A DNA stretch of 64,000 nucleotides, from contig OX485803.1 in the NCBI GenBank assembly GCA_950295325.1, forward strand, positions 54,701,554-54,765,553, given 5' to 3'. How positions within the stretch are numbered: the first letter of the stretch is position 1; every line of letters begins with the position of its first letter. A program made the translations under genes and the position numbers. This DNA comes from Polytrichum commune. Its lineage: Eukaryota; Streptophyta; Polytrichopsida; Polytrichales; Polytrichaceae. The notes below the pieces were generated by a model, which searched no databases, was not told the DNA's origin, and saw nothing but the letters and a program-made list of their open reading frames with translations. Below are positions 3,875 to 64,000 of this stretch, piece by piece.

Positions 3875-6800
3875 ATGGCATCATCTTCAAATCCGAGAGT
3901 GACATTAGCTACCATAAGCCGACCTCCAGCAGATATCGGTGCAAACATGAAAACCAAATTTACTCCCCTTGCTGCCGATGGGTCAAACTATCTAGAATGG
4001 GAAAATGATGCTAGGATAGCTCTAGGAGCCGAAGAGACAACTATCTATCTTGATAAAACTACAGCCGAGGGTCAACCAGATTCTCTCAAATGTTAAGTAT
4101 TGATTCTTCTCCGAAGGCACATACACCCATCCCTAAGACAACAATACATTAAAGTAGATCACCCCACTGACTTGTGGACTCAGCTACGTGACAGGTTCCA
4201 TCATGAACAAACCATCTTTCTACCCGAGGCTAGAAATGACTAGATTAATCTCAAGGCCCTTGATTTTCCCGACCTACTCTCATTCAACGGGGAACTCCAC
4301 CGAATCTCATCACAACTCAGTCTGTGTGGCGAGCCAGTTACTGAGGCTCAATTGATCGATAAGACTCTCTCCACCTTCCCACCTGCTTCTACAATTCTTG
4401 CCCAGCAATACCGAAACATGAAATTTGAGAAACATAGCACACTGATGTCTCACCTCCTTCTCGCAGAGAAACATCAAGCCATGTTACTTAAAAATGCAGA
4501 ATCCAGGCCCGCACGTGAGATCCACGCCATGATAGCTGCTGGACCATCAAAATGAGTGCCGGCCGTACTCCTCTCGGAGGCACTGCGCCGATCACCAAAG
4601 GGTTTCCAACGCCAACCTCCACCTAGGTCATTCAAATTCAAGCCTAGGGACCAAAAACCGAGGTATGTTCCGCCAAAACATAAAGCCTCAACGCAATCCA
4701 CATCCTCATGTCATAAATGTGGCCGCCCCAGCCATTATGCGAGAGATTGCCGAGCATCGGCTTACGTAATTGAGATGTATAAGGAGCTACAGAAATTACG
4801 TAGCCAAAATAGAGAGTCTCATGCAGTCCAAATTCCATCCATCCCTGACATGGATATAGAGAATTACATGACTGTCACAACTCCAATGACTCAAGGTATG
4901 GAGGCTGCCCTATTGGACATCGCCTCTCACATACCATATTGAGGAATTTAATGTTTTTCTCTTTCCCGGATGGTAACATAGGTTGGCAAACTAGCCACGT
5001 TACCACAATCGCGGGACAGAAAAACATAACCTTCAAAGAAGGTACAACAACTGTATTGCTACGCGGGAATCACCCGATAACATGTCGGGACGCTATGTAT
5101 GCTCCCGATGCCCCCCGGAGCCTGATCAGCTACGGAGACCTAAGGGCAAATGGAATCCACGTCTCTATCACGATAGAGAACGATGAAGAGGCGTTGACAC
5201 TTAGGCAGGGACAGAGGACCCTCGCCACCGCAATAGCGGGAGTCGACGGCCTATATGAGATCGCTATCAAAGCGATTAGCCCCGCCCCTAGGGTTGAGGA
5301 AGAAGTTAGCCTGGTTGCACAGGAGAGAGATCCCGGTGTGAAAACCCGCAACTTAGCCCGGAAAACTGGCCTATATCTCACGGCGGCTGCCCTCTCAAAT
5401 ATATGGCATAAAAGGCTTGGGCACCCTGGCACTACTATATTTCGGAGGATGATCCCCTCCTGGCCGGCCATAACCTTACATCCGCGAATGCTGCCAAGAT
5501 AGCCCCTTGCGAGGCGTGCATTCAAGACAAGATGATCAAGAGGTCGTCCCAGTGGCAACTCCCCACCGAATTGCCGCCACCGCTCCATCGACTTCAAGGT
5601 GATATCTGTGGACCCATCAACCCACCTTCAAGTTCATTTCGGTATTTCCTAGTGCTCATATATGCATCCGGGAGCCACCTAGAGTTAGCTCTACTAACCA
5701 CTAGGAATCTTATATTTTCCAGAATTCTTGCAATTCTGATACGCTATAAAAACCATTTTCCTGAACATCCTGTCAAATTCCTCCGAATGAACAATGCATT
5801 AGAATTTTGTTCACATGCATTTGAGGATTATTGTACCGCATCAGGAATCACCCTTACCTATGTTGTACCTTATGAACATTCGTAAAATGGTCTTGCGGAA
5901 GCTTTCATAAAGAAAATTCAGCTAGTAACTAGGCCTTTGTTCATCCATGCTAAACTCCCAGATTCATTTTGGGGCCATGCGGTTCTTCATGCTGCAGCCA
6001 TCCTACGGTTGACACCAACCTTATTCAACCAACAAACCCCATATGAACTCATTGCCGGCCGGCCACCCAATGTCACCCATTTACGCATATTTGATTGCCA
6101 AATTTGGGTACATGTACCTGAACCACAGGGATTCACCGATCCGAGGCAATTTACCTCGGATATGACTCACCCAACATCATCAGATATATGGACCCCAAGA
6201 CCGGGGCCATACTAAAAGCCAGGCTAGTAAACTGTAAGTTTATTGAACACATATTTCCCATTCCACCGGTTGACCGAACGATCAAACATGTTCCCTTAAA
6301 CTTCCAGGCCCCGGAAACATTGACTTTAAATCCGGACCCTCGAACCTCACTAGCCGACACCGAAGTCACAAAACTCTTAAACTTGAAGGATCTAGCAGAA
6401 CAGATTCCCAATGGCTTTTACTCCGGTCCTAGAGTACTTCGGAACCCACTACCCAGGACATGTAACACCATATCTAACAAGAGATTGGCACCACTCAATT
6501 CCAAGCCAACCAAGGTTCAACGCACCACATTCAACATCGAAGTTGCACCGGACCCACTCACATTGGCCGAGGCCAAAGCATCACCAGAATGACCCGACTG
6601 GAGCAAAGCTCTAGAGACCGAATACGCATATCTCAGGAAGCACCAGGTATTCGGCGAAGCATCCACTGAATTCATAAAATCTCTAGTGGGCCACAAACTA
6701 ATTTTCTCTAGAAAATTTGATGCCAACGGCAAGTTGCTTCGGTTCAAGGTCCGTCTTGTTGCTCAAGGCTTCTCGCAACGACCGGGAGAGGACTTTGACC

Positions 6801-8157
6801 AAACTTACGCCCCGTCCTGGATATCATATAATTCAGGTACATGTTGGCATTAGCAGTCCATTTTCGCCTTGAAATCTTTTTGATGGATGTTGTAACGGCA
6901 TACCTATATGGCAACCTGGATATGCTCTTGTATATCTCATCCCCTCCAGATTTCTTACCAAAGCTGCCTACTCCCTCACCCGGGAGATTTCTAGGCTTAC
7001 ACATATGTAAGGCACTATACGGTTTAAAGCAAACTGGCAAAATGTGATACCACCTACTCTGTGATTTTCTGATTTCACATGAGTTTTTGCATGATCCAAC
7101 TCTACCATGCATCTTTACCTTAACCCAAAATTCACAATATCTAATTGTGGTCGTCTATGTGGATGATCTAAATCTAATCAGATCCCCCACATTGTGTAAG
7201 CACACCGAAGCTATACTAACAGCCCAATTTGACATGAAGTTGCTCGGAAAGACCTCGTTTTGCCTTGGTTTACAGATTCAACACTTTCCAAATGGCGTCC
7301 TCCTACACCAACAGACATACATCCGCAAGCTGCTCAAATTTTTCAACATGGACCAAGCTCACGCGTTGGCCGCACCGATGATCGGGAGGAGCCATAGTGA
7401 TGACGACCCGTATCAACCTTGCTCGGAGGAGGAAGAGATAGTGGACAGGTCCAAATACCTCACGGCGGTTAGAGCTTTCACATACCTAACCACGCACACG
7501 CGGCCGGACATTGCCTTCGCAACGAACATACTCGCGAGGCACAGTCGAAAGCCGACCGCCCGCCATTGGAATGGCGTTAAGCACCTACTCCGATACTTGA
7601 GAGGAACGGAGGACCTCGGGTTGTACTATAGAAATGACACAAATGGCGAGATCACAGGATATGCTGACTCCGGATTCAAAACAGATGAGGTAACATGCAA
7701 GTCTCAGACCGGTTACATATTCATCAAGAATGGAGCGCCGATATCATGGAAATCTGCCAAGCAAACTGTGACTGCCACATCCATGAATCATGCCGAACTC
7801 TTAGCATTTCACGAAGCATCAAGAGAGGCGGTGTGGCTAAGGACAATGCAAGAGATCTTAGCAAAACAATGCAAGATGAACCAGAAGTTCAAATCAACGG
7901 TCATATTCGAGGATAACGCAGCATGTATCGCCCAAATAAACATGGGGTTCATTAAGGTTGATCAGGTGAAGCACATCAGCCCACATATATTCGGATTTGC
8001 TCAAGACCTTATAGAAACATGCTAGATTGAGATAAAGAAAATAGAATCCGAAAACAATATAGCCGATATGCTCACAAAGGCCTTACTGGCTTACAAGCAT
8101 AAGAAACTAGTGTTAGAGGCAAGAATGAAAACCTTACACGAACTCACTTCGAACTAG
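3875..8157 (+). pseudogene. Broken Ty1/copia gag-pol
   Basis: Pieces in order: gag N-terminus from ATG 3875 (stop at 4096), gag middle (4352-4555), CCHC zinc knuckle CHKCGRPSHYARDC (about 4711-4752), protease-like end and GAG-pre-integrase motif LWHKRLGHPG-like (about 5400-5430), integrase core (5532-6150), reverse transcriptase with MDVVTAYLYGNLD (6880-6920) and catalytic YVDD (about 7158), and RNase H with GYADSGFKTDE, HAELLAFHEAS and FEDNAACIAQ (7660-7930), to a stop at 8157. At least eight stops or frameshifts separate them. In the integrase, the usual DNG..EF reads NNALEF, so the second catalytic Asp is Asn. The product cannot function; the element would need proteins supplied in trans. 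Confidence 0.92.
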
Positions 8158-32655: not shown

Positions 32656-35554
32656 ATGGTCAGTGTTGATATTAACCCTCGGTTCAGGGCCTGCTCAATA
32701 TGCACCCATACATGCTTCAAAGAGCATGGTGTAGATACTGGGAAGAATCCCAATGCGCTGTTCACGAGACCACCATGCTTCCTCATAGCTTCTGTGGACC
32801 TACAGAAACCCTGGCTGGTGAGCTGATCCTTTTCTAACCTTGCTTTTAGCCACCAAGTGTTGTACTCATTCATTGCAATATCTAGTCAATACAACACCTA
32901 AAATCTTTTGTCTGCGTATGTGAGCATCACTAAGCATGTGTAAGGATGTTCTTTTTCTATTCCAGCTTCAAGAATACATTCAAGAATCAAGGTCCTTGAT
33001 TACATGCATAAATGCCCAGCATTGTCAAGTGGCAAACCCTCATTAATGGACATCTCATTGTTACCTGTCTCCGGACAAAAAAGGTCTCACCCAGTGTATA
33101 CTTTCCAAGATTTTATATAGGGAGAACACCCATTACACCACTTCAGAATGCAATGTATGTGGACTTATTTGCCGAGTGTGCAATGTGGTGCAGCCCATAC
33201 CAAATGAGTTCTTGGAAGCTCACAAGGATGATTGCCACGACGCAGCTGACCTGGAAGACCCCAGTGGTAATTTGTGGTTAGTTGACATAAAAAGTGGAAT
33301 GGGAGGGGTGGCTTTCAGGGAAGGGTGGAAACCTTTTGTCTTTTCTCTCAACCTGAAGAGAGGTGATCAACTACTGTTCTCCTTGATTGCCAAAAATCGC
33401 TTCTACGTGTACGTATTGAACAGAAATGGAGCTGAAGTAACACCGGCATCATCAAAGGCCCACTTCAAATCCTCTCTCCCATTGACCAAGCGCAAGAGAG
33501 AGCCGGAGGAGGAGAAAGGTTCTGATGACTCTGACGCCGACTCAGGTTCCGGTTCCGATTCAGACGACGATGAGGGTAGCATAAGTGGTGAGTCAGAGAG
33601 CAGCGAGTACGATGCTTCGAAATCGGAGAATGAAGCTTCAGACCATGAAGAAGGTTCAAAGGCGAACTCCAAGGTGAAGAAAGAGAAGTTGGATTATGCG
33701 CTCAAGACACCAACTGGTAGAGGAAAGGTAAGCTCAAAGGTTAAGCTCACTACCAGTCACAAGAAAAAGGCTGGAGATATGGCCCAGAAAGAGAAGGAGG
33801 GATTACTGGAACCTGGATGGAATTCCACTACATATGAGTCTCGAAGACGGCCAGTTACTGATGCTGAGCGGCAGAGAGCAATGAAAGCTGCACAGAATTT
33901 CAAGACCACGAGACCAAGCCAGCTTGTATTGATGAAGCCTTCGCATGTGTACCGTGGGTTCTGGCTTGTAAGTTCTTTTTCACTTCGATCTAATGACTAT
34001 TCAATATCTTAGTTTTATCATAAGATTCTGACTCTGGCAGGCAGGCGTCAAGAAGGATTGATAGGTCTATGTCAATGGATTATATCAACATTTTGTTCTG
34101 TGGTTATCAATAAGCATGCTTAAAGGATTCTATAGTATTCTTGAGCATGTTAAAGGGCGTCCTCTTTTCTATTCTAGCTTCATAAATAAATCCAAGAATC
34201 AAGGTCCTTGATGGCATGAATGAATGCCAAGCATAGTCAAGTGGCAAGCTCTTATTAGTCGCCACCTCATTGTGACCTATCTTCGGATATAGACTTTCTC
34301 CCATCTACCAAGACTCAACTTATATGGAACTTGCCACCGAGTGCATACTGTCTAAGATACTTATTTTGGGAAGAACACCCACTACACCACTTAAGAATGG
34401 TTTGTCTATTGCCATTTAAAAAACAATTATGTATGGCTGGAAGCTTGAAAGTCATTCGATCTGTTTTGGGCATTGTTCTACATTTCAAGCAAGCCTGTCT
34501 TACCACAAAGTGTTCCAAACCCGGTAGGATATGTGAGAACGCTGGCACTGAAATTCGTGATGACATGACGCAGACTATACCCGGGCAGTACTCAAAGAAG
34601 CACATGCCAGGGGAACGAATTCAGATCAAAGTCCAAGACACCAACGGATTCCAGTGGCCTGCAAGTTGGATCAAGAGTGATCACCACAGTGGTATCAGTG
34701 GAGGCTGGGCTGCATTTAGCCGTGACCACTGCCTTGAGGAGGGAGATGTGTGCGTCTTCGAGGTCCTTGACAATAAGGACTGGACTGTTCTTGTGAATAT
34801 CTTTCGGGTGGTGGATGTGGATCTTAAACCTAACAGCCGTGGTGGGTGGGAGAAAACCTACAAGATTGTCTATGGAGCAACGAGGAAAGAGAGGGGGGTA
34901 ACAACCAAGAGTCTTTTAAAGAAGACTGGGAGCTCTGTTAAGAAAAGCCAAGCCAAGTCTCTGCCCTCGAACAAGAAGGCGAAGAGCACTGAAAACTTTG
35001 ACGTCATCGACGCCCCTGTCAAGAATCTCACCAAAGGGAGAGTCACCCGGTCATCTGCAGACGCATTAACCAAGTTGGAGGAGGTGGATGTGAAACCTGA
35101 CATAAGTTCCATGGGTCTCTCTGCCAAAAACCCTCCGAAGTCATCTTTCAAGGTAAAACAAGAGATTGGTGCAGACTGTGGGGATGTGAAACCAACTCTG
35201 GAACAGCTGAAGGCCTCCTTAAGGCCCTCCAGTGTTGATCCATTTGATACTTATGAGGAGAAGCCCAAAGTACTTCAATTTACACCAGGCCTTGTGAAAC
35301 CAGAGCCAGTGGACGGAGAGGGCGACACAGTCTCCTTCAAGAGTGAGAGAAACTGGCAAGAAGTAAGTAAGATAGTAGGGAAGCGTCAGAGTAAGGTGAA
35401 GGCAGAACAAGAGTTTTTGGTGGAGTTCGAAGGTCCAGTAGTGTTGACAAAAGAACCGAGCAGTGCTGTTGAAAAAGATGGTGAGAACTGGTGGGTGCCA
35501 TTCTCACAATTCTCTACTGACATGTCAATGTGCTACCTTGAGTCTAGTAGCTAG
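32656..35554 (+). CDS. Two-domain B3 (REM-type) DNA-binding protein
   Basis: Three exons, 32656-32817, 33194-33967 and 34574-35554, joined in phase 0 (donors CTG|GTGAGC and CTT|GTAAGT, acceptors GTGCAG|CCC and ACGCAG|ACT), give 638 residues. An N-terminal Cys motif, ACSICTHTCFKEHG (12-25), resembles that of other REM proteins. The first B3 domain spans about 40-136 (PIPNEFLEAH, GWKPFVFSLNLKRGDQLLF). An acidic Ser/Asp/Glu linker at 155-215 and a basic part follow. The second B3 domain spans about 296-395 (PSHVYRGFWL, TIPGQYSKKHMPGERIQIKV, GGWAAFSRDHCLEEGDVCVFEV). The tail has several V-K-x-E sumoylation-like sites (VKQE, VKPE, VKAE). B3 proteins bind DNA in the nucleus; the targets are unknown. 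Both domains are split at the same place and phase. Confidence 0.88.
32912..33160 (+). repeat. Repeat shared by both B3-gene introns, copy in intron 1
   Basis: The stretch with TTTTCTATTCCAGCTTCA, CAAGAATCAAGGTCCTTGAT, GTCAAGTGGCAA and GGGAGAACACCCATTACACC matches 34118-34400 in intron 2, at roughly 75 percent by eye. It lies 95 bp after the intron 1 donor and ends shortly before the acceptor. Confidence 0.8.
34118..34400 (+). repeat. Repeat shared by both B3-gene introns, copy in intron 2
   Basis: Partner of 32912-33160 in the same orientation, with about 40-50 extra bases in the middle. It carries TTTTCTATTCTAGCTTCA, CAAGAATCAAGGTCCTTGAT and GGAAGAACACCCACTACACC. The copy is well inside the 606-bp intron. 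Confidence 0.8.
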
Positions 35555-57000: not shown

Positions 57001-58640
57001 TTTTGACAAAACTAATACATTGTTAAGCCTCTTCCTCCCTCACCCTAGGCAAGAGAATAATACAACCAAGAAGTAGGAATAAATATGTTGTGATCATCAA
57101 AAAAATGACAGTGTCAATCTTAGTGCCGCCACAAAATCCCAATGAAACTTGGAAATCAACTTAATAATACAAATTTTAAAAAATGAGGGAGTAGAGGCCT
57201 AGCACTGTTGTGAACATTCTTCATCATGGCACCTTTTGCTAGGTGGGCCCAAAGATTTTTGCAATTTGATACTTAAATGACATAGGTAGGATCCTCATGG
57301 TATTCCCCAACACTCAGAACTACATTCTCTAATTGAAATAAGTTACATATTTCAAATTATTTTTCTAGAAGGATTTGTTGACTTGAAATACACTTTGATG
57401 AGGACTTTCAAATGACGAAGAATTGTCACCTCTCATAAACAAAGTTCCCAAGCAACCCTGGAAAGAGAGAATAATTGTGTATGAGCGTACCTCTCACTCG
57501 TTCAATGTAAAAGCCATAACTAGTATTCGACCCAAATGTCATTATTTTTCATGCTTGTGATATGATTTAGAATGATATTCCCTCACAATAACAAATCCAT
57601 CAAATGTCAACATTTGACTAGTATCACAATCTTGGTAGCCACACGTAGGTTCTTTGATGCCATTGTTGATGTTGACTATTGCTACCGTGCATTCACTTAC
57701 ATACTAGACCAACGCAACATTACTAAGCATCTAGATGATGATCTCTTTCCAAATTAAGAGGTTGTAATTAAAAAAAACTTCTAATTTATAGTTGCTTGTC
57801 GAAAACTCCACATTACACAGCTCGAGTGCTCCCCATAGACAAGGGATTCTAGGATCAAAGAAGAAATTTTCTCATCCAAAATATGGTCCTATAGAACACA
57901 ACCAAGAAATTGAGTAATGTTATGAACATCGATAGATACTTACTTGATTTTTGTCTCCCAAGATACTTGTCCCATAATCCTACTCCATAAATTTGTCTCG
58001 GGTTCACATATAAACTCGCAACTTATAATCAAATTGAAGCGTCTCATCCTCTCTCCCTCTACCTCTCCCTCTTGTTCTTGCACCCAAACAAATCCCTAAT
58101 CATAGAAGACCACACACATTCTAAAGTTGACGAAATTAGTACTATTTGCCATACTTTTGTCTCCTCTACCCCATCCTCTTACATGTCCCTCCTATGAATT
58201 TGTCGTGTTCTTGCCTTGTCCCGCGTTATTTTGTCTTCTTTTGTATTATTCTCTCTTACCGGATAACCTAAAATATGGTACCATGGTTCAATCAAGGTAT
58301 ATGAGCTTGGGTGTCCACTTTGGGCCTCGAGATGTCATATGGAGGTGATTAAGACTACTAACTACAATTTTGGATTGATGACGTGAAACGGAAACCATCT
58401 AAAAATAGTTTTACATTAGATTCCATTCATCCAATTGTACCAACATATAATAGTAGTGTAGAAATTAAGGAGCACGTACATAAGAAATAGATAAAGGGTT
58501 GAGCTCGTATAAGTGACTTACATCCAAATATATACCATGTCTATCTTGTGAATCGATGTCACATATTGACCATTATCATTATTTTATTTTATTTTTCTAG
58601 AAAGTCGTTTTAAATATGTCTTTAGTCTAAAAAATTCAAA
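57001..58640. other. Gene-free stretch
   Basis: Small frames at 57572-57757 and 58127-58348 show no motif. No element edge was recognised up to the AG run at 58645. Confidence 0.4.
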
Positions 58641-58670
58641 AACTAGAGAGAGAGAGAGAGAGAGAGAGAG

Positions 58671-58753
58671 AGCTGGGCATTTCTTGGTAAGAGCTAAGCT
58701 TGTATTCAAGCATAGTCCTATTCAGAAAACATCCTCCATATGGTGGCCATTCC
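58671..58753 (-). repeat. Direct terminal repeat, left copy
   Basis: Matches 63918-64000 with one difference (GGTGGCC against GGAGGCC). It contains a small hairpin GCTTG-TATT-CAAGC type arm (58700-58712). A 30-base AG run (58645-58672) adjoins it. The repeat may extend beyond 58753; its partner is cut at the window end. Confidence 0.9.
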
Positions 58754-59846
58754 ATTCATATACATATCTTTGTACTATTTAGCAAAAACCCGGGTGGGTG
58801 GGTGGGATCCCTCCTCATATCAGTACAATACATGTCTTAGTAGGTCTACTATAAGGTGTAACCATGGTTTGACACCTTCTCTTGCATACAACTCATATTC
58901 AACTAACCCTATATACCTTGCATTTCTTTGAAGTTACTATGTATATACTATACAACTCCTTAGTCAAAAACTAGGAAGGACCATTGTCATCATGTGCACT
59001 TCAAAATATAACCCAATAATCAATATATGTGTAAGTATTCATCATCTCCATCAAGGAATACATACAATATATGAGCACTAAGTGTATGAATCCAAAAAGG
59101 TAAACAAACTCTAAGGATGTCGTTCAAAATTGTGAAGGGTCTGCCTCACCTGTGCCCATGCAACCAACCAACAAAAAATGAGGATTAGTCACGTACCCGA
59201 GGTGAATAACAGCAGAACCCAATTGTTATCTATGTCACACAATCAAACAACAATACATCTATTGATTTTGCATTACCACATACTCCGTAAGAGAGTATTT
59301 TACCTGTTCCTTTGCCATTGAAGTTTCTTGTGGGGTCAGATTGAAGCACTTAGCCTAAATCACCCACTAGTTAACTTCCTCTGCCCTAATCACAGAGTTT
59401 ACCAAAGATAACCGTTTAGTGTGGTTCAACCTTTGAGTGAAAAGGAACTTTCTCAGGTCCTTGCTCTTGATATATGATTAGGTTTACAATCTTGTCCGTA
59501 GATGCCATGAGTAGAATCTATGGTGGACAGTAGTTAGGTAGAGTTCTTCTAACCCTAAGGTACTTATCCTTTAAAGATTAGATTTACAGATCTCAGTAAT
59601 TTATGTTTGGCAAAGTAAAAACAGAGTATAGAGAGAGAGAGAGAGAGGCCCGCCACCAAAAAACCCCTGGTATGTATAATATTTGGATCTCGGGAGTACA
59701 TACTAATGCTTGGTTAAACAAGGATTACACTAGTATGTATCCACTATCGGCTTACATACCAGTCCCCTTATTTTTAACTCAACTCTGCTCTCGTTAGTAG
59801 CCTATTAATCAGGCATGTCTTGCTCTCTTCTAAACTCAGATTCATG
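58754..59846 (-). other. 3' untranslated part of the retroelement
   Basis: About 1.1 kb between the RT stop and the known repeat. A second AG run lies at 59628-59648 and a GGTGGGTGGG patch at 58792. No ORF of note. Part of it may belong to the terminal repeat. Confidence 0.5.
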
Positions 59847-62051
59847 CTAAAAAGTGCCTGGGTTGCCGGTAAGCTTACCTTGAAATGCCGTGATTAAATC
59901 CTTAACCTCGAATCTGACAGCAGGGTAGTTAGTTTTGGAGATGGTTGCTATTACCAGTTGTAGAAGCTTCTGTTTGCGGAATCCGTTGCTGGTTAAAGTA
60001 GAAATCAGTTTACCAAGTTCTTGCTTAGCCATATTCATATCATTAGACAAATACAATATGGGTATTGTCTGTGATACGATGACATTGTACGCTTGTTTTA
60101 CTGGTCTGTTAGAGCAAAATTTAATATACTGCGTATATAAGAATGGGAGTTCTCTCCGTTTATCATATTTCTGGAGTGTGAATTCACCATCATCTTCATT
60201 GGTGATTGAAACCAACACATTCATAAAATGTGCCTTGATCCCAAGAGTAGGGTTAATTATGGAAAAGCATGCCACTTCCGTTTTGATTTCCAAAATATGT
60301 AAAGGATATATCCAAAACGGGTTGGATGATGTCCTGGGTTGTTGTGGGTCAAGGAAAATACTTGCATTACCATTGTTGATCCAACAAAGATCATCAATGT
60401 ATCGGAATGCATGCATAAATTTTCCCATTAAGTCAACCCTCCCAAGTTTAGCTAGTCTTTGCATAAACTTGATCTCGTATGACATTAGGTACAGGTTACA
60501 CCAAAGAGGGGAGCAGGAAAATCCCATTGGAATACCCAATACTTGCTTCCATACCCTATTCCCTAGTCTCACATAGCAGTTTGTTGTAAGCCACTTGTGT
60601 AACATCAAGAATTCACTCACTGATATTTGTAGCCATTTGCCGTAGCTTGGGCAAGTAGATGCCCAAACTACTCTAGTAGTTACACCCATAGCATTGACTT
60701 TGACCCAAGCTCTTGGTTCCGATCTAGGATATTTACGTTTGAAATTTTTGATCCCTAAAGAAGTAATAAATTCCATAGCTTCAAATAGGGTATCTTGGCC
60801 ATTTATTGGTATAGTCTCAAAGCATCTTGTAATGTCCGCCACATATATGTTGTGGACTTTTTGTGGGATGTTGAGACAAAACTCATTGATGGAATCAATG
60901 ACCCAATATACGGATGTATCAATTCCGAGGAAATTTTTGTAACCTATGACTGTGGTTTTAGCCCATTGTTTAACCTCCTCAAGGAGAGCCATAGTAGCTA
61001 CCGTTACAAGGGTAGCCATGTTGACATAGATGGATCCAAAAGCATTTGTGATCCATCTATATTTTTTCTTGTGGAATTTGTAGATAGCCATGATATATGG
61101 TAATTCATGGCTATCATTATGTAGTTCCGGTAGGAGTTCATGTATAGTCCCTTGCAGGTATTTGATAATTTCCTCAATGGACTGCCATTTGTCACCGTCT
61201 TTGCAAGGTAGGAAGTCTCGACTACTTAGCCTTTCCAATGCTTGTTGTCTAATATGATTTATGCATATAAAACATGCATTATTAGACGCCTTATCCAAAC
61301 CGGACACATATACATGCTTGAGGAGCCAGTTAAGCTCATCCATTACAGGTTTAACTGTAAACAAGTAAGGTTGAGAATACCTGAATCCAAACTTGTTGAG
61401 CTTGTACGCATTAAGTAGAATCCCCCTGCTTCTCTGGCGTACCTCCTTTGTGGCCTCGTTTATGTCCAACAATTGCTCCACATTGAGTACATGGCATACT
61501 TGTAAGAAGGTATCATATATGACTTGGATCGCTTCATGTATGGCCGTAGGTCTCAAAGGTATGTGGTTGAGCCCCATTTGAATGGCATTTCTCAAACCCT
61601 TATGTTGAATAATGGATATATCCATTGTTCTAACATGTCCTTTACTCTTTTCCTCATTGTGTTCATCCAATGTATCCTTGTCAAGGAATTTGTAGAATCT
61701 TTTAGAGGATTGACATATGCACATGTCCTCTAGATTCAATTCTTCAGGAATTTCAAACTCTTTAAAGACCATGCTTGGTTTGTAACAATACTTAGAAATG
61801 TTTGGATGGTAACTCCATGCAAACATTATATTAAGTAATGCAGGTATGACCTGCGGTATGGAGAAGAACATGAAAATTTCAGAGAAGAATTTTTTCATGT
61901 TGATCCATTCCAAAGCCCTATTGCAGTAAAACACATGTACAATACCGGTATACTCCGATTTTTTGCTTTTGGTAATAACTTTTCTGCCTATAGAGTTGTT
62001 TTTGACCTGCCGTATATCACCTGGTTCAAAAATATATATATATTCAGCCAT
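59847..62051 (-). CDS. Reverse transcriptase, unusual family, 734 aa
   Basis: One intact frame from a true ATG. Residues 110-178 carry CIC, GHVRTMD and LRNAIQMGLNHIP, a conserved lead-in. The RT core follows: GLDKASNNACFIC (251-263), LPYIMAIYKFHKKKYRWITNA (317-337), motif A YVADITRCFETIP with catalytic Asp406, motif B GIPMGFSCSPLWCNLYL (506-522), motif C RYIDDL with Asp553-554. After the palm come IYPLHILEIK (581-590), YDKR (629-632), SNRP and SQTIPILYLS, then a short tail. KFHK and the post-palm YDKR/SN.P/SQ series recall Penelope-like and related uncharacterised RTs of animals and algae rather than copia, gypsy or LINE types. No nuclease or RNase H domain is attached. It would copy the element RNA into DNA; how it integrates is unknown. 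Confidence 0.88.
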   Translation of the reverse strand: MAEYIYIFEPGDIRQVKNNSIGRKVITKSKKSEYTGIVHVFYCNRALEWINMKKFFSEIFMFFSIPQVIPALLNIMFAWSYHPNISKYCYKPSMVFKEFEIPEELNLEDMCICQSSKRFYKFLDKDTLDEHNEEKSKGHVRTMDISIIQHKGLRNAIQMGLNHIPLRPTAIHEAIQVIYDTFLQVCHVLNVEQLLDINEATKEVRQRSRGILLNAYKLNKFGFRYSQPYLFTVKPVMDELNWLLKHVYVSGLDKASNNACFICINHIRQQALERLSSRDFLPCKDGDKWQSIEEIIKYLQGTIHELLPELHNDSHELPYIMAIYKFHKKKYRWITNAFGSIYVNMATLVTVATMALLEEVKQWAKTTVIGYKNFLGIDTSVYWVIDSINEFCLNIPQKVHNIYVADITRCFETIPINGQDTLFEAMEFITSLGIKNFKRKYPRSEPRAWVKVNAMGVTTRVVWASTCPSYGKWLQISVSEFLMLHKWLTTNCYVRLGNRVWKQVLGIPMGFSCSPLWCNLYLMSYEIKFMQRLAKLGRVDLMGKFMHAFRYIDDLCWINNGNASIFLDPQQPRTSSNPFWIYPLHILEIKTEVACFSIINPTLGIKAHFMNVLVSITNEDDGEFTLQKYDKRRELPFLYTQYIKFCSNRPVKQAYNVIVSQTIPILYLSNDMNMAKQELGKLISTLTSNGFRKQKLLQLVIATISKTNYPAVRFEVKDLITAFQGKLTGNPGTF

Positions 62052-62180
62052 ACAAACTATTTAAAGATCTGTCAGCATTGCAGATGAACATATTAGCTAG
62101 GTAAACTGGCTTATAGCAGCTAATGAATTACAAATGCCCACATTAGCCACTGCCTAGTTGTATCCTATCCCTGGTATTCA
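62052..62180 (-). other. Spacer between Gag-like ORF and RT
   Basis: The RT frame is the same as the Gag frame, but five stops (TAG, TGA, TAG, TAG, TAA) lie between them. Simple readthrough is therefore excluded; reinitiation, splicing or a separate message would be needed. Confidence 0.6.
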
Positions 62181-62876
62181 CTAGATATCCTCCTCCCATA
62201 GTAAAACTCGAGCCTTTAGTGGGGACGACAGCTGGTGGCGTGCTGTAGTTCCCGTTCGGGCGCCTGGGGTACTGTCAGTTGTGCTGGGTGACCCTAGGCC
62301 TGTCTCGCAGGTGTTAGCCGTTCGCCCATGAGCGTTGAGGTTAGGGTTACGAAACCCTGACCTTCCACCTCCGCGGCCTCTCCAACTTCTGCCGCCTCTC
62401 TGCGCTGGGCTGCTACCCCGCATTGAAGGACTGCTCCGACCTCTTCCTCCCGCATAGTTTCTCTCAGAGGGGGAAGAATTGAGATTGATTTTCTGCTTTT
62501 TGAATGGTGATGGTGCTTTACTAGGAGATCCTGGATGGGCGAGAGAGAACTTTGGTCCTTTGAGTAGTCTCTCTATCTTGCTAGCGATTGGAGTATCCGC
62601 GATATCCTTAAGTAGTCTTTGACTAGGATCCTCGGATAATTGAGTCGCTGCTTTGATCATTTGCTCTCTCCCTATTTGAAACACAATGGCGGCTTTCACT
62701 GCCACTCTAGCTGACTCATGCATCCAAATCATGAAAGCTGCTAGTATAGCAACAGTAGTAGGATAGTTTGGGAAAAAGATCTCCAGCTTGTTGATCATGG
62801 TCCACACGGCGTGATCAAACCAAATGATTGATCCTTTGCATCCACTTGTTGCTCTAGGGTTGCAAAGGCATCTCAT
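62181..62876 (-). CDS. Gag-like ORF, C-terminal part with RGG box
   Basis: It starts at an ATG but is in the same frame as the upstream ORF, with only a TGA and five codons between. The first 110 residues are helical with hydrophobic stretches (PTTVAILAAFMIWMHESARVA). Residues 110-190 are basic and Ser/Pro/Gly-rich with RG repeats (GGRGRSS, RGGRSWRGRGGGRSGF), typical of RNA-binding tails. No zinc knuckle is present. A nucleocapsid-like role is inferred from position and composition only. Confidence 0.65.
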   Translation of the reverse strand: MRCLCNPRATSGCKGSIIWFDHAVWTMINKLEIFFPNYPTTVAILAAFMIWMHESARVAVKAAIVFQIGREQMIKAATQLSEDPSQRLLKDIADTPIASKIERLLKGPKFSLAHPGSPSKAPSPFKKQKINLNSSPSERNYAGGRGRSSPSMRGSSPAQRGGRSWRGRGGGRSGFRNPNLNAHGRTANTCETGLGSPSTTDSTPGARTGTTARHQLSSPLKARVLLWEEDI

Positions 62877-62894
62877 GTATGGGCGCTGGACATT

Positions 62895-63821
62895 TCACAT
62901 CTCTGATAAATGTGAATCCTTCCTATTGTGCCCTGTAGGTAGATCTTGCTTTGTGTGTAGTTTGACCTCCTCTGTAGTGCACTTTGAATGATCAAACATA
63001 TTAAGTGGGAAAGCATGCATCAAATCCATTGGTGCCCTTAGCACACCAATGTTGTTGAATGCTTGCTTTTTGAAATTTTCCACTTCTTGATCTGAAAATC
63101 CTGCCCAAGCCTTCCACATGGGGATGGATATTGGGGCTATGAGGTTTGTATTCCCTATTGCCCACATTCTATGCTGAAAATCTGCAACTAGTAGCTCCAC
63201 ACTTCTAGTTGGTTTGATTGGGACTACTGGTCCTTTACTTGCAATCATTGTATTTTTGTGTTTCTCGGCTTGGGAAAGTTGAATACCATCACTGAAATCC
63301 TCTAAAGCTGATAAATCTTCGGCTGAGATTGCCAGCTTCGCAAGCAGTGGATGTGTAACAGAACCAGTGTTGTTACCGGAGTCTATTCCAACTACTGTAC
63401 TGGCTGACTCTGGATTAAGCTCATCTGCATTAGCTAGCTTGAGAATAGCTTCTACTTTCTGTGCTAGTTGATCAGCCTTCTCGGCATCAACTTCGTCCTC
63501 AGCTAGCAACTCTGGTAACTTATCCTGTGCAGATTTGAGCCTAGCAATGGCTTTCGGTGGATCTGCGGTAGCAAGGACAAACAACGATGTCCACGCCGCT
63601 AAGTCTAGAGAATCCAACAGAAGGGGGGAATGCAGACCTTCTTCGTCTGTATCGCTGATAGCAGCGAGATCTGCTTCCTGTAGGCTTGTATGAAACTCCG
63701 GGATGTTGATAGCGGCGATAGTAGACTGTACTGCCGGTATCGGTGCTGGCAACGGGTGTGCATACCCGAGCTTCACCAGATCCTCACACCATGCCTGAGT
63801 CTTTTGTTTAGACTGTGTCAC
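62895..63821 (-). CDS. Gag-like ORF, N-terminal part
   Basis: The frame has 308 codons up to a TGA. It has no ATG at its start: the first codon is GTG and the frame is closed by TAA just upstream. GACACAG|TCTAAAC at its 5' edge is a good splice acceptor, so a first exon nearer the terminal repeat is likely. The product is acidic in its middle (AEDEVDAEKADQLAQKVEAI) with a folded-looking segment TRSVELLVADFQHRMWAIGN and IPMWKAWAGFSDQEVENF near residues 210-270, plausibly capsid-like. No known family is recognised. Confidence 0.6.
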   Translation of the reverse strand: MTQSKQKTQAWCEDLVKLGYAHPLPAPIPAVQSTIAAINIPEFHTSLQEADLAAISDTDEEGLHSPLLLDSLDLAAWTSLFVLATADPPKAIARLKSAQDKLPELLAEDEVDAEKADQLAQKVEAILKLANADELNPESASTVVGIDSGNNTGSVTHPLLAKLAISAEDLSALEDFSDGIQLSQAEKHKNTMIASKGPVVPIKPTRSVELLVADFQHRMWAIGNTNLIAPISIPMWKAWAGFSDQEVENFKKQAFNNIGVLRAPMDLMHAFPLNMFDHSKCTTEEVKLHTKQDLPTGHNRKDSHLSEM

Positions 63822-63917
63822 ATATTATGCATTAACACAGTCAGACATTAAGTACTAAAGATATGTACTAGAATGGATGGTAGCAGTTTCCATGCTGCTA
63901 ATGGGTGTTCTAGAGAG

Positions 63918-64000
63918 AGCTGGGCATTTCTTGGTAAGAGCTAAGCTTGTATTCAAGCATAGTCCTATTCAGAAAACATCCTCCATATGGAGGCCATTCC
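63918..64000 (-). repeat. Direct terminal repeat, right copy (cut by window)
   Basis: Partner of 58671-58753. It starts after CTAGAGAG and runs off the window end. On the element strand it lies about 100 bp before the Gag-like frame, the place of a 5' LTR or pseudo-LTR with promoter. Confidence 0.88.

Follow-up and report, generated by a model that had tools for sequence, protein, structure and literature searches.

A probable Penelope-like retroelement with a gag-like frame, full-length direct repeats and no recognisable endonuclease in Polytrichum commune

The stretch of the Polytrichum commune genome analysed here (64,000 nucleotides, hereafter the window; positions 54701554-54765553 of contig OX485803.1, or C1, in a genome of 408 Mb) carries on its minus strand a compact retroelement. 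We consider it probable that this is a Penelope-like element (PLE) with a reverse transcriptase (RT) of the telomerase family, without a recognisable endonuclease (EN), and equipped with a gag-like open reading frame (ORF) and full-length direct repeats. It is interstitial and may belong to the Naiad/Chlamys branch of PLEs. The copy in the window looks young, its family looks small, and insertions look biased towards CTCTCT. A preliminary description of the window held that the element fits no standard plant class. That view is not sustained, since the RT groups with telomerase and since direct repeats resembling long terminal repeats (pseudo-LTRs) are a known feature of PLEs, as the available text of two papers describes (PMC11167929; PMC3846280).

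Read in the sense direction, the copy in the window consists of (CT)n, repeat, gag-like frame, RT frame, (CT)9, repeat and (CT)n, with no other sense-strand frame of 120 aa or more besides the gag-like and RT frames. Its features are as follows.

About 58645-58672, minus strand: genomic (CT)n tract into which the outer end of the 3' repeat, CTCTCTCT, merges
58665-59647, minus strand: 3' terminal direct repeat, 983 bp (self-BLAST and right extension; boundaries compared across copies)
59144-59161, minus strand: conserved GCATGGGCACAG followed by GTGAGG, an ATG with a consensus-like 5' splice site, in the repeat and inside a predicted helix with compensatory changes
59630-59647, minus strand: inner (CT)9 tract, 18 nt, between internal region and 3' repeat (copy comparison and tract measurement)
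59847-62051, minus strand: RT ORF, 734 aa, with an invariant CxC at residues 111/113 and the catalytic motif FRYIDDL
62021-62022, minus strand: AG, a candidate 3' splice site through which the leader ATG could be joined in phase to the RT frame
62181-62894, minus strand: gag-like ORF, part 2, in the same frame as part 1, with an RG-rich tail
62895-63821, minus strand: gag-like ORF, part 1, without an ATG at its start and, in this copy, with an in-frame stop at its end
63868-63911, minus strand: stem-loop immediately after site B, kept in position and differing in stem sequence in distant copies
63912-63919, minus strand: site B, CTCTCTCT, at the junction of 5' repeat and internal region, a putative initiation site of reverse transcription
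63912-64000, minus strand: in-window start of the 5' terminal direct repeat; the remainder, up to about 64894, lies beyond the window
To about 64928, beyond the window, minus strand: (CT)n tract outside the 5' repeat

Within the window, 88 of 89 bases are identical between 58665-58753 and 63912-64000, at a spacing of 5,247 bp. Reading past the window edge extended this match, by self-BLAST, to 983 bp with a single mismatch (58665-59647 against 63912-64894), and there the identity ends, with (AG)n tracts at the ends. The spacing and the single mismatch given in the preliminary description stand, as does its view that the element moved recently; its repeat length of 83 bp was too short. Because the match stops at 983 bp, no wider segmental duplication is involved and this explanation was rejected. 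The sequence at site B is identical to the outer 3' end of the insertion.

The layout recurs in the genome. A search with the RT returned 63 match rows (the best 61 of 134 candidates scored, with two or more rows from some copies), and the 983-bp repeat as a query returned 47 rows (the best 40 of 805 candidates scored); together they hold at least 15 near-full copies and at least 32 full-length repeat rows. Among the 15 near-full copies that were read in detail, 12 have flush terminal repeats and read (CT)n-repeat-gag-like-RT-(CT)n-repeat, a recurrence that excludes chance. Mismatches between the two repeats of these 12 copies are 1/983 (window), 1/983, 0/977, 0/1169, 0/1113, 0/1117, 3/1107, 0/1120, 0/1118, 0/1104, 7/1112 with one gap, and 1/1601, and repeat length across the family ranges from 0.98 to 1.6 kb. 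In the 11 other copies aligned, the RT is between 98% and 42% identical to that of the window copy, and the copy at C1:74.31 Mb keeps the flush layout at only about 43%. Both frames are stop-free in nine of the 15 near-full copies. The copy at C3:42.43 Mb has strongly diverged repeats; that at C6:32.75 Mb has no 5' repeat within the piece read and may be truncated. The listed RT places lie on the seven large contigs C1-C7, at least 0.49 Mb from the contig start, and the repeats are similarly spread, with one pair on the small contig C29. Relatives of the element were also searched for in viral contigs and prokaryote genomes, and none were found. Among the matches listed, two members of a distant RT subfamily have longer open frames than the others, at C3:21168947-21171130 (867 aa) and C1:51473060-51475228 (807 aa), the latter with one stop inside the match.

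The placement of the RT rests on comparison within the same genome. Pfam RVT_1 is matched in all 12 RT members studied, although for the window RT the match is weak (E 3.4e-5, under the curated cut-off); PDB sequence searches with the RT gave no match. A profile built from the 12 RTs was compared with 108 open frames at RT loci in this genome and with one unverified Naiad-like sequence. The profile matched an exon of telomerase, present in two overlapping loci, at E 3.7e-6, whereas the best frames of the other classes reached 0.43 (Gypsy), 2.7 (Copia) and 7.1 (long interspersed nuclear elements, LINEs), and an affinity to these three was therefore rejected. The telomerase exon scored 18.0 bits, above all 999 of its own shuffles (at most 4.7 bits), and when it served as the query, every one of the 12 RT members was matched, with E from 1.7e-6 to 1.2e-4. 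By sequence the RT thus groups with telomerase and not with Gypsy, Copia or LINE RTs, in a comparison that separates only telomerase plus PLEs from the others. The unverified Naiad-like RT sequence matched the profile at E 2.3e-25, and a search started from it gave 42 rows, of which 41 are places where this family was already known; this is a lead and not a test.

The full-length YIDD reverse transcriptase of the preliminary description is borne out by the open RT frame, and its picture of a compact element without recognisable integrase, RNase H or endonuclease also holds. Pfam gave no match to integrase, RNase H, GIY-YIG, tyrosine recombinase or APE in the 12 RT members (E<=1) or in the gag-like protein, and no integrase or endonuclease ORF of a known class was seen in the search for one. 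Four other Pfam families, each matched by one RT member (Mre11_acc_DNA_cap, E 0.01; Zn_ribbon_CSL, 0.13; SAM_CEP-1_C, 0.15; LutB_C, 0.85), were dismissed as chance, being weak and confined to single members. An unlikely alternative is that the element is of Chlamys/Naiad type, that residues 1-110 are a GIY-YIG domain diverged past recognition, and that nicking is element-encoded. C111 and C113 of the CxC are indeed invariant in all 12 members and are preceded by about 100 partly conserved residues, at the place where PLEs with an N-terminal EN (Naiad/Chlamys), reportedly described by Craig et al. in 2021, carry GIY-YIG before the CxC. Against this, the same Pfam model that failed in all 12 members made 13 matches elsewhere in the genome, and no GIY...YIG pattern is visible by eye in the RT alignment.

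The two gag-like ORFs (63824-62895 and 62894-62181) are one reading frame split by one in-frame stop, and in the closest copy, on C6, this frame is open over 547 aa. One gag-like frame is therefore present, but its identity as Gag found no support, as no convincing Pfam or PDB relative emerged: a Pfam scan of nine members yielded nothing except one match at E 7.7, and comparison with PDB sequences gave two weak hits (E 0.57 and 0.69). 'Gag' is here a label without homology. Given the stop in the gag-like frame of the window copy, the term 'near-intact' fits other family members better.

The ends of the insertions are distinctive. Six of the 32 full-length repeat rows belong to the window copy and to the copies at C6:39.81 and C1:74.19 Mb, and flanks were read for 20 of the remaining 26, selected as full length, which we call solo repeats. 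(CT)n forms their 5' edge, L042 showing variants with CTCG, and their 3' edge is mostly CTCTCT, L036 and L042 ending at AGCT. Among full copies, that at C2:27.23 Mb has four extra bases at its 3' end and that at C1:74.31 Mb ends CTCTCATC. The 3' ends of the insertions coincide with the repeat/internal junction, next to the stem-loop. Clearly more CT than the element supplies is found at 17 of 31 sites (7/11 full, 10/20 solo); in the window, CT/GA tracts of at least 10 nt cover 56 of the 58,640 bases outside the element. In all 11 flush copies measured, the CT tract outside the 5' repeat exceeds the inner tract in length (25-76 against 13-27 nt, the difference being just 1 and 3 nt in two of them), and the 3' CT tract is 6-9 nt in eight of ten copies measured. 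This asymmetry fits priming near the 3' edge of the CT tract.

The insertions at C1:74.19 Mb, L044 and L048 share one host repeat. The six empty copies of it that were read have matching flanks around a CT tract, showing that the element went into a (CT)n tract of the host with no visible target duplication; further copies of this host repeat have much longer tracts or other changes at the site. By eye, no consistent target-site duplication was found in the 20 solo repeats and the full copies, and the target duplications that the preliminary description had proposed to look for did not materialise. L033 has GTGACACT on both sides, and its empty paralogue carries nearly the same pair. No second genomic copy of the window copy's own flanks was found, hence no empty site for that copy. 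At six sites (L030, L035, L039, L042, L043 and C1:40.47 Mb) the 5' flank resembles, by eye, the repeat end of another subfamily, at C1:40.47 Mb also by BLAST.

These ends bear on a reading that we consider very unlikely, namely that the element derives from a Gypsy/Copia LTR retrotransposon, no longer has integrase or RNase H, and is mobilised in trans or through cDNA recombination at (CT)n. Full-length direct repeats, a G-rich stretch upstream of the 3' repeat, and the many full-length repeats that, among the matches listed, have no RT nearby would all suit such an origin. However, the RT profile matches telomerase beyond its shuffles and not the Gypsy or Copia RTs present in this genome, the repeats end in (CT)n and CTCTC and not in TG...CA, and the empty sites are without visible target duplication.

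Several features of the predicted RNA are shared by the copies. A stem-loop directly follows the repeat/internal junction in all 13 copies folded and in L022, with stems that differ by subfamily: UAGCAG/CUGCUA, UAGUGGU/ACCACUA, UAGCAGU/GCUGCUA, UACUUUAGA/UCUAAAGUA and UACUUCAAA/UUUGAAGUA. The leader ATG with its 5' splice site, GCATGGGCACAGGTGAGG, is exact in at least one repeat of all 15 near-full copies and in 15 of the 20 solo repeats, and 7 of the 22 pairs in the structure predicted around it have changed on both sides. All 11 copies tested have, at nearly the same position by the RT start, an AG whose phase suits the leader ATG. By chance one phase-compatible AG is expected about every 60 nt; such AGs being common, the case for the RT acceptor rests on the shared position. 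The conserved ATG and 5' splice site in the repeat may thus supply the start codon of the RT.

From these features a replication cycle can be proposed. The repeat would drive a transcript, the full-length RNA would give the gag-like protein, and the leader ATG in the repeat would probably be spliced to the RT frame. The RT would bind the stem-loop just past the first repeat, and cDNA synthesis would start in the adjacent CUCUCUCU. As we infer from the insertion ends, the primer would be a GA-rich 3' end exposed where a host site that contains CT, often as (CT)n, is nicked or broken. Synthesis would run through the repeat as far as the (CT)n on its 5' side. A template switch to the identical (CT)n that precedes the second repeat, or passage round a tandem or circular RNA, would presumably follow, after which the internal part and then the repeat again would be copied, and the GA-rich cDNA end would anneal to the remaining host (CT)n. 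A switch at (CT)n would yield repeat-internal-repeat with identical repeats, as a circular or tandem RNA equally would; without a switch a solo repeat would result, an alternative to recombination as the source of the many solo repeats. According to the fullest form of this proposal, which we put forward tentatively and with some doubt, the family is a separate, nuclease-free branch of the telomerase-type retroelements, living in land plants, that has evolved an LTR-like strand-transfer cycle of its own, in which (CT)n would act as primer-annealing end, strand-transfer repeat and target-homology arm, alongside a gag-like protein and an RT mRNA that is spliced and regulated by its structure.

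The repeats may also have arisen by canonical tandem insertion of a PLE, as nothing more than the overlap between a complete and an incomplete copy in head-to-tail order, or by way of a circular RNA, so that no switch at (CT)n is needed; we regard this as possible, if rather doubtful. Pseudo-LTRs of PLEs are attributed to a tandem or partial-tandem arrangement in the available text of PMC11167929 and PMC3846280, and a unit-length circular RNA is compatible with our data. A partial copy should have a variable 5' edge, whereas the same (CT)n edge is found in all 12 flush copies. Yet truncated copies were possibly missed, as the best-scoring rows were listed and the solo repeats were chosen as full length, and the copy at C6:32.75 Mb may be one.

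A number of observations count against the assignment to PLEs or against the cycle proposed for it. The unverified Naiad-like RT is the only PLE sequence in the comparison, and the AlphaFold models are poor (mean pLDDT, the predicted local distance difference test score, 44 for the RT and 49 for the gag-like protein). An Rfam scan of window positions 58000-64000 gave no RNA match at E<=1, so that a hammerhead or other known RNA was rejected; many PLEs have a hammerhead. The shuffle z-scores of the stem-loop are modest (-1.3 to -2.6, five sequences), the changing stem sequences being the stronger argument, and the compensatory pairs around the leader ATG mostly reflect one split between two clades. 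The gag-like frame fits the leader ATG poorly: among ten gag frames tested, three have no in-phase AG, one has it at +16 and six only at +52, inside the conserved part, and a CAG at the same gag position in three subfamilies is in phase 0, incompatible with the leader. An empty paralogue of L033, 81% identical, has a single CT at the insertion point, and a long (CT)n is hence not essential for insertion. The longer outer CT tracts could reflect later microsatellite growth. Copies truncated at the 5' end are under-counted, as the repeat and RT lists hold the best-scoring candidates only. Finally, the copy at C3:28.16 Mb has a chimeric 3' repeat, in which an 840-bp identical pair gives way to a neighbouring repeat end, and a 172-bp duplication.

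At that locus (C3:28.157-28.164 Mb; L004, L012 and L024) the 172 bp duplicated on both sides are those of the neighbouring repeat end, and the copy may be a trace of priming somewhere other than at the CT end. Elsewhere in the window there are two adjacent frames with B3 DNA-binding domains (33047-35551) and one NAM-associated frame, which mark the host as a land plant, and Copia fragments at 4849-8025 with an RVT_2 match and a weak gag_pre-integrs match under its cut-off. Among the matches listed, Copia RVT_2 forms a dense cluster on each large contig (C1 ~33.4, C2 ~47.3, C3 ~33.2, C4 ~35.5, C5 ~46.6, C6 ~25.5 and C7 ~13.6 Mb), the pattern that a centromeric Copia family should give; seven large contigs with one such cluster each would suit a moss. 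One contig holds three GIY-YIG frames (C9:25682, 52353 and 54650; 267-285 aa), possibly organellar intron endonucleases or a contaminant.

Among known systems, members of the Naiad/Chlamys clade have a CxC motif and a microsatellite bias and are not known to have a canonical hammerhead. The element shares with them the CxC before the RT, direct pseudo-LTRs, the microsatellite bias and the missing hammerhead, and its RT resembles the unverified Naiad-like sequence; it differs in having no GIY-YIG match, a gag-like ORF, long flush repeats (0.98-1.6 kb) and CT-type ends. EN-bearing PLEs (Penelope/Poseidon, Neptune, Nematis) differ from it by a C-terminal GIY-YIG, of which none of the 12 members has a match at E<=1, and by the hammerhead ribozyme. 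PAc, a Penelope/Poseidon element of Anolis, has a telomerase-like RT and pseudo-LTRs, as the element does. In the portion of PMC11167929 available, its reverse transcription starts internally, at an AC-rich stem-loop 111-118 bp into the ORF and downstream of the pseudo-LTR, a start to which the insertion ends of our element suggest a likeness; the PAc start site is described there as not homologous to its target. The insertion end of our element, in contrast, lies just before the stem-loop, is CU-rich and can pair with GA-rich target 3' ends.

LTR retrotransposons of plants (Gypsy/Copia) have a similar layout of repeat, gag-like frame, RT and repeat, and leave solo repeats, but the element has no integrase or RNase H match, another RT, no TG..CA ends and no visible target duplication. 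From LINEs it is set apart by its terminal direct repeats and by the lack of an APE match, and the LINE RTs of the same genome are unmatched by its profile. A further likeness is with the EN(-) PLEs (Athena and Coprina and, in land plants, those of Selaginella and conifers), which also have a telomerase-side RT without recognisable endonuclease. PLEs of plants are patchy, with Dryad in conifers, EN(-) forms in Selaginella and conifers, and no others in the part of a plant review available to us (PMC9033089). Association with telomeres is described for PLEs of Selaginella and bdelloids in the accessible text of PMC12477314; the ends of EN(-) PLEs are telomere-like repeats and those of our element CT, and both can pair with the target. 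Unlike EN(-) PLEs, the element is interstitial on seven large contigs, not telomeric, and has complete direct repeats.

An interstitial, apparently endonuclease-less PLE that combines flush repeats and CT ends with a gag-like ORF is unnamed in the titles and abstract openings of the literature searched, a body from which subscription journals are mostly absent. We file the element among the PLEs as a variant, possibly of the Naiad/Chlamys clade. Endonuclease-less PLEs have been described mainly from telomeres, whereas the present family is interstitial, sits at CT sites, and offers young copies and readable empty sites. It thus provides a way to study how a telomerase-like RT inserts DNA without a nuclease of its own, and it bears on how flush direct repeats can arise without the machinery of LTR elements and on whether a PLE can use a gag-like partner.
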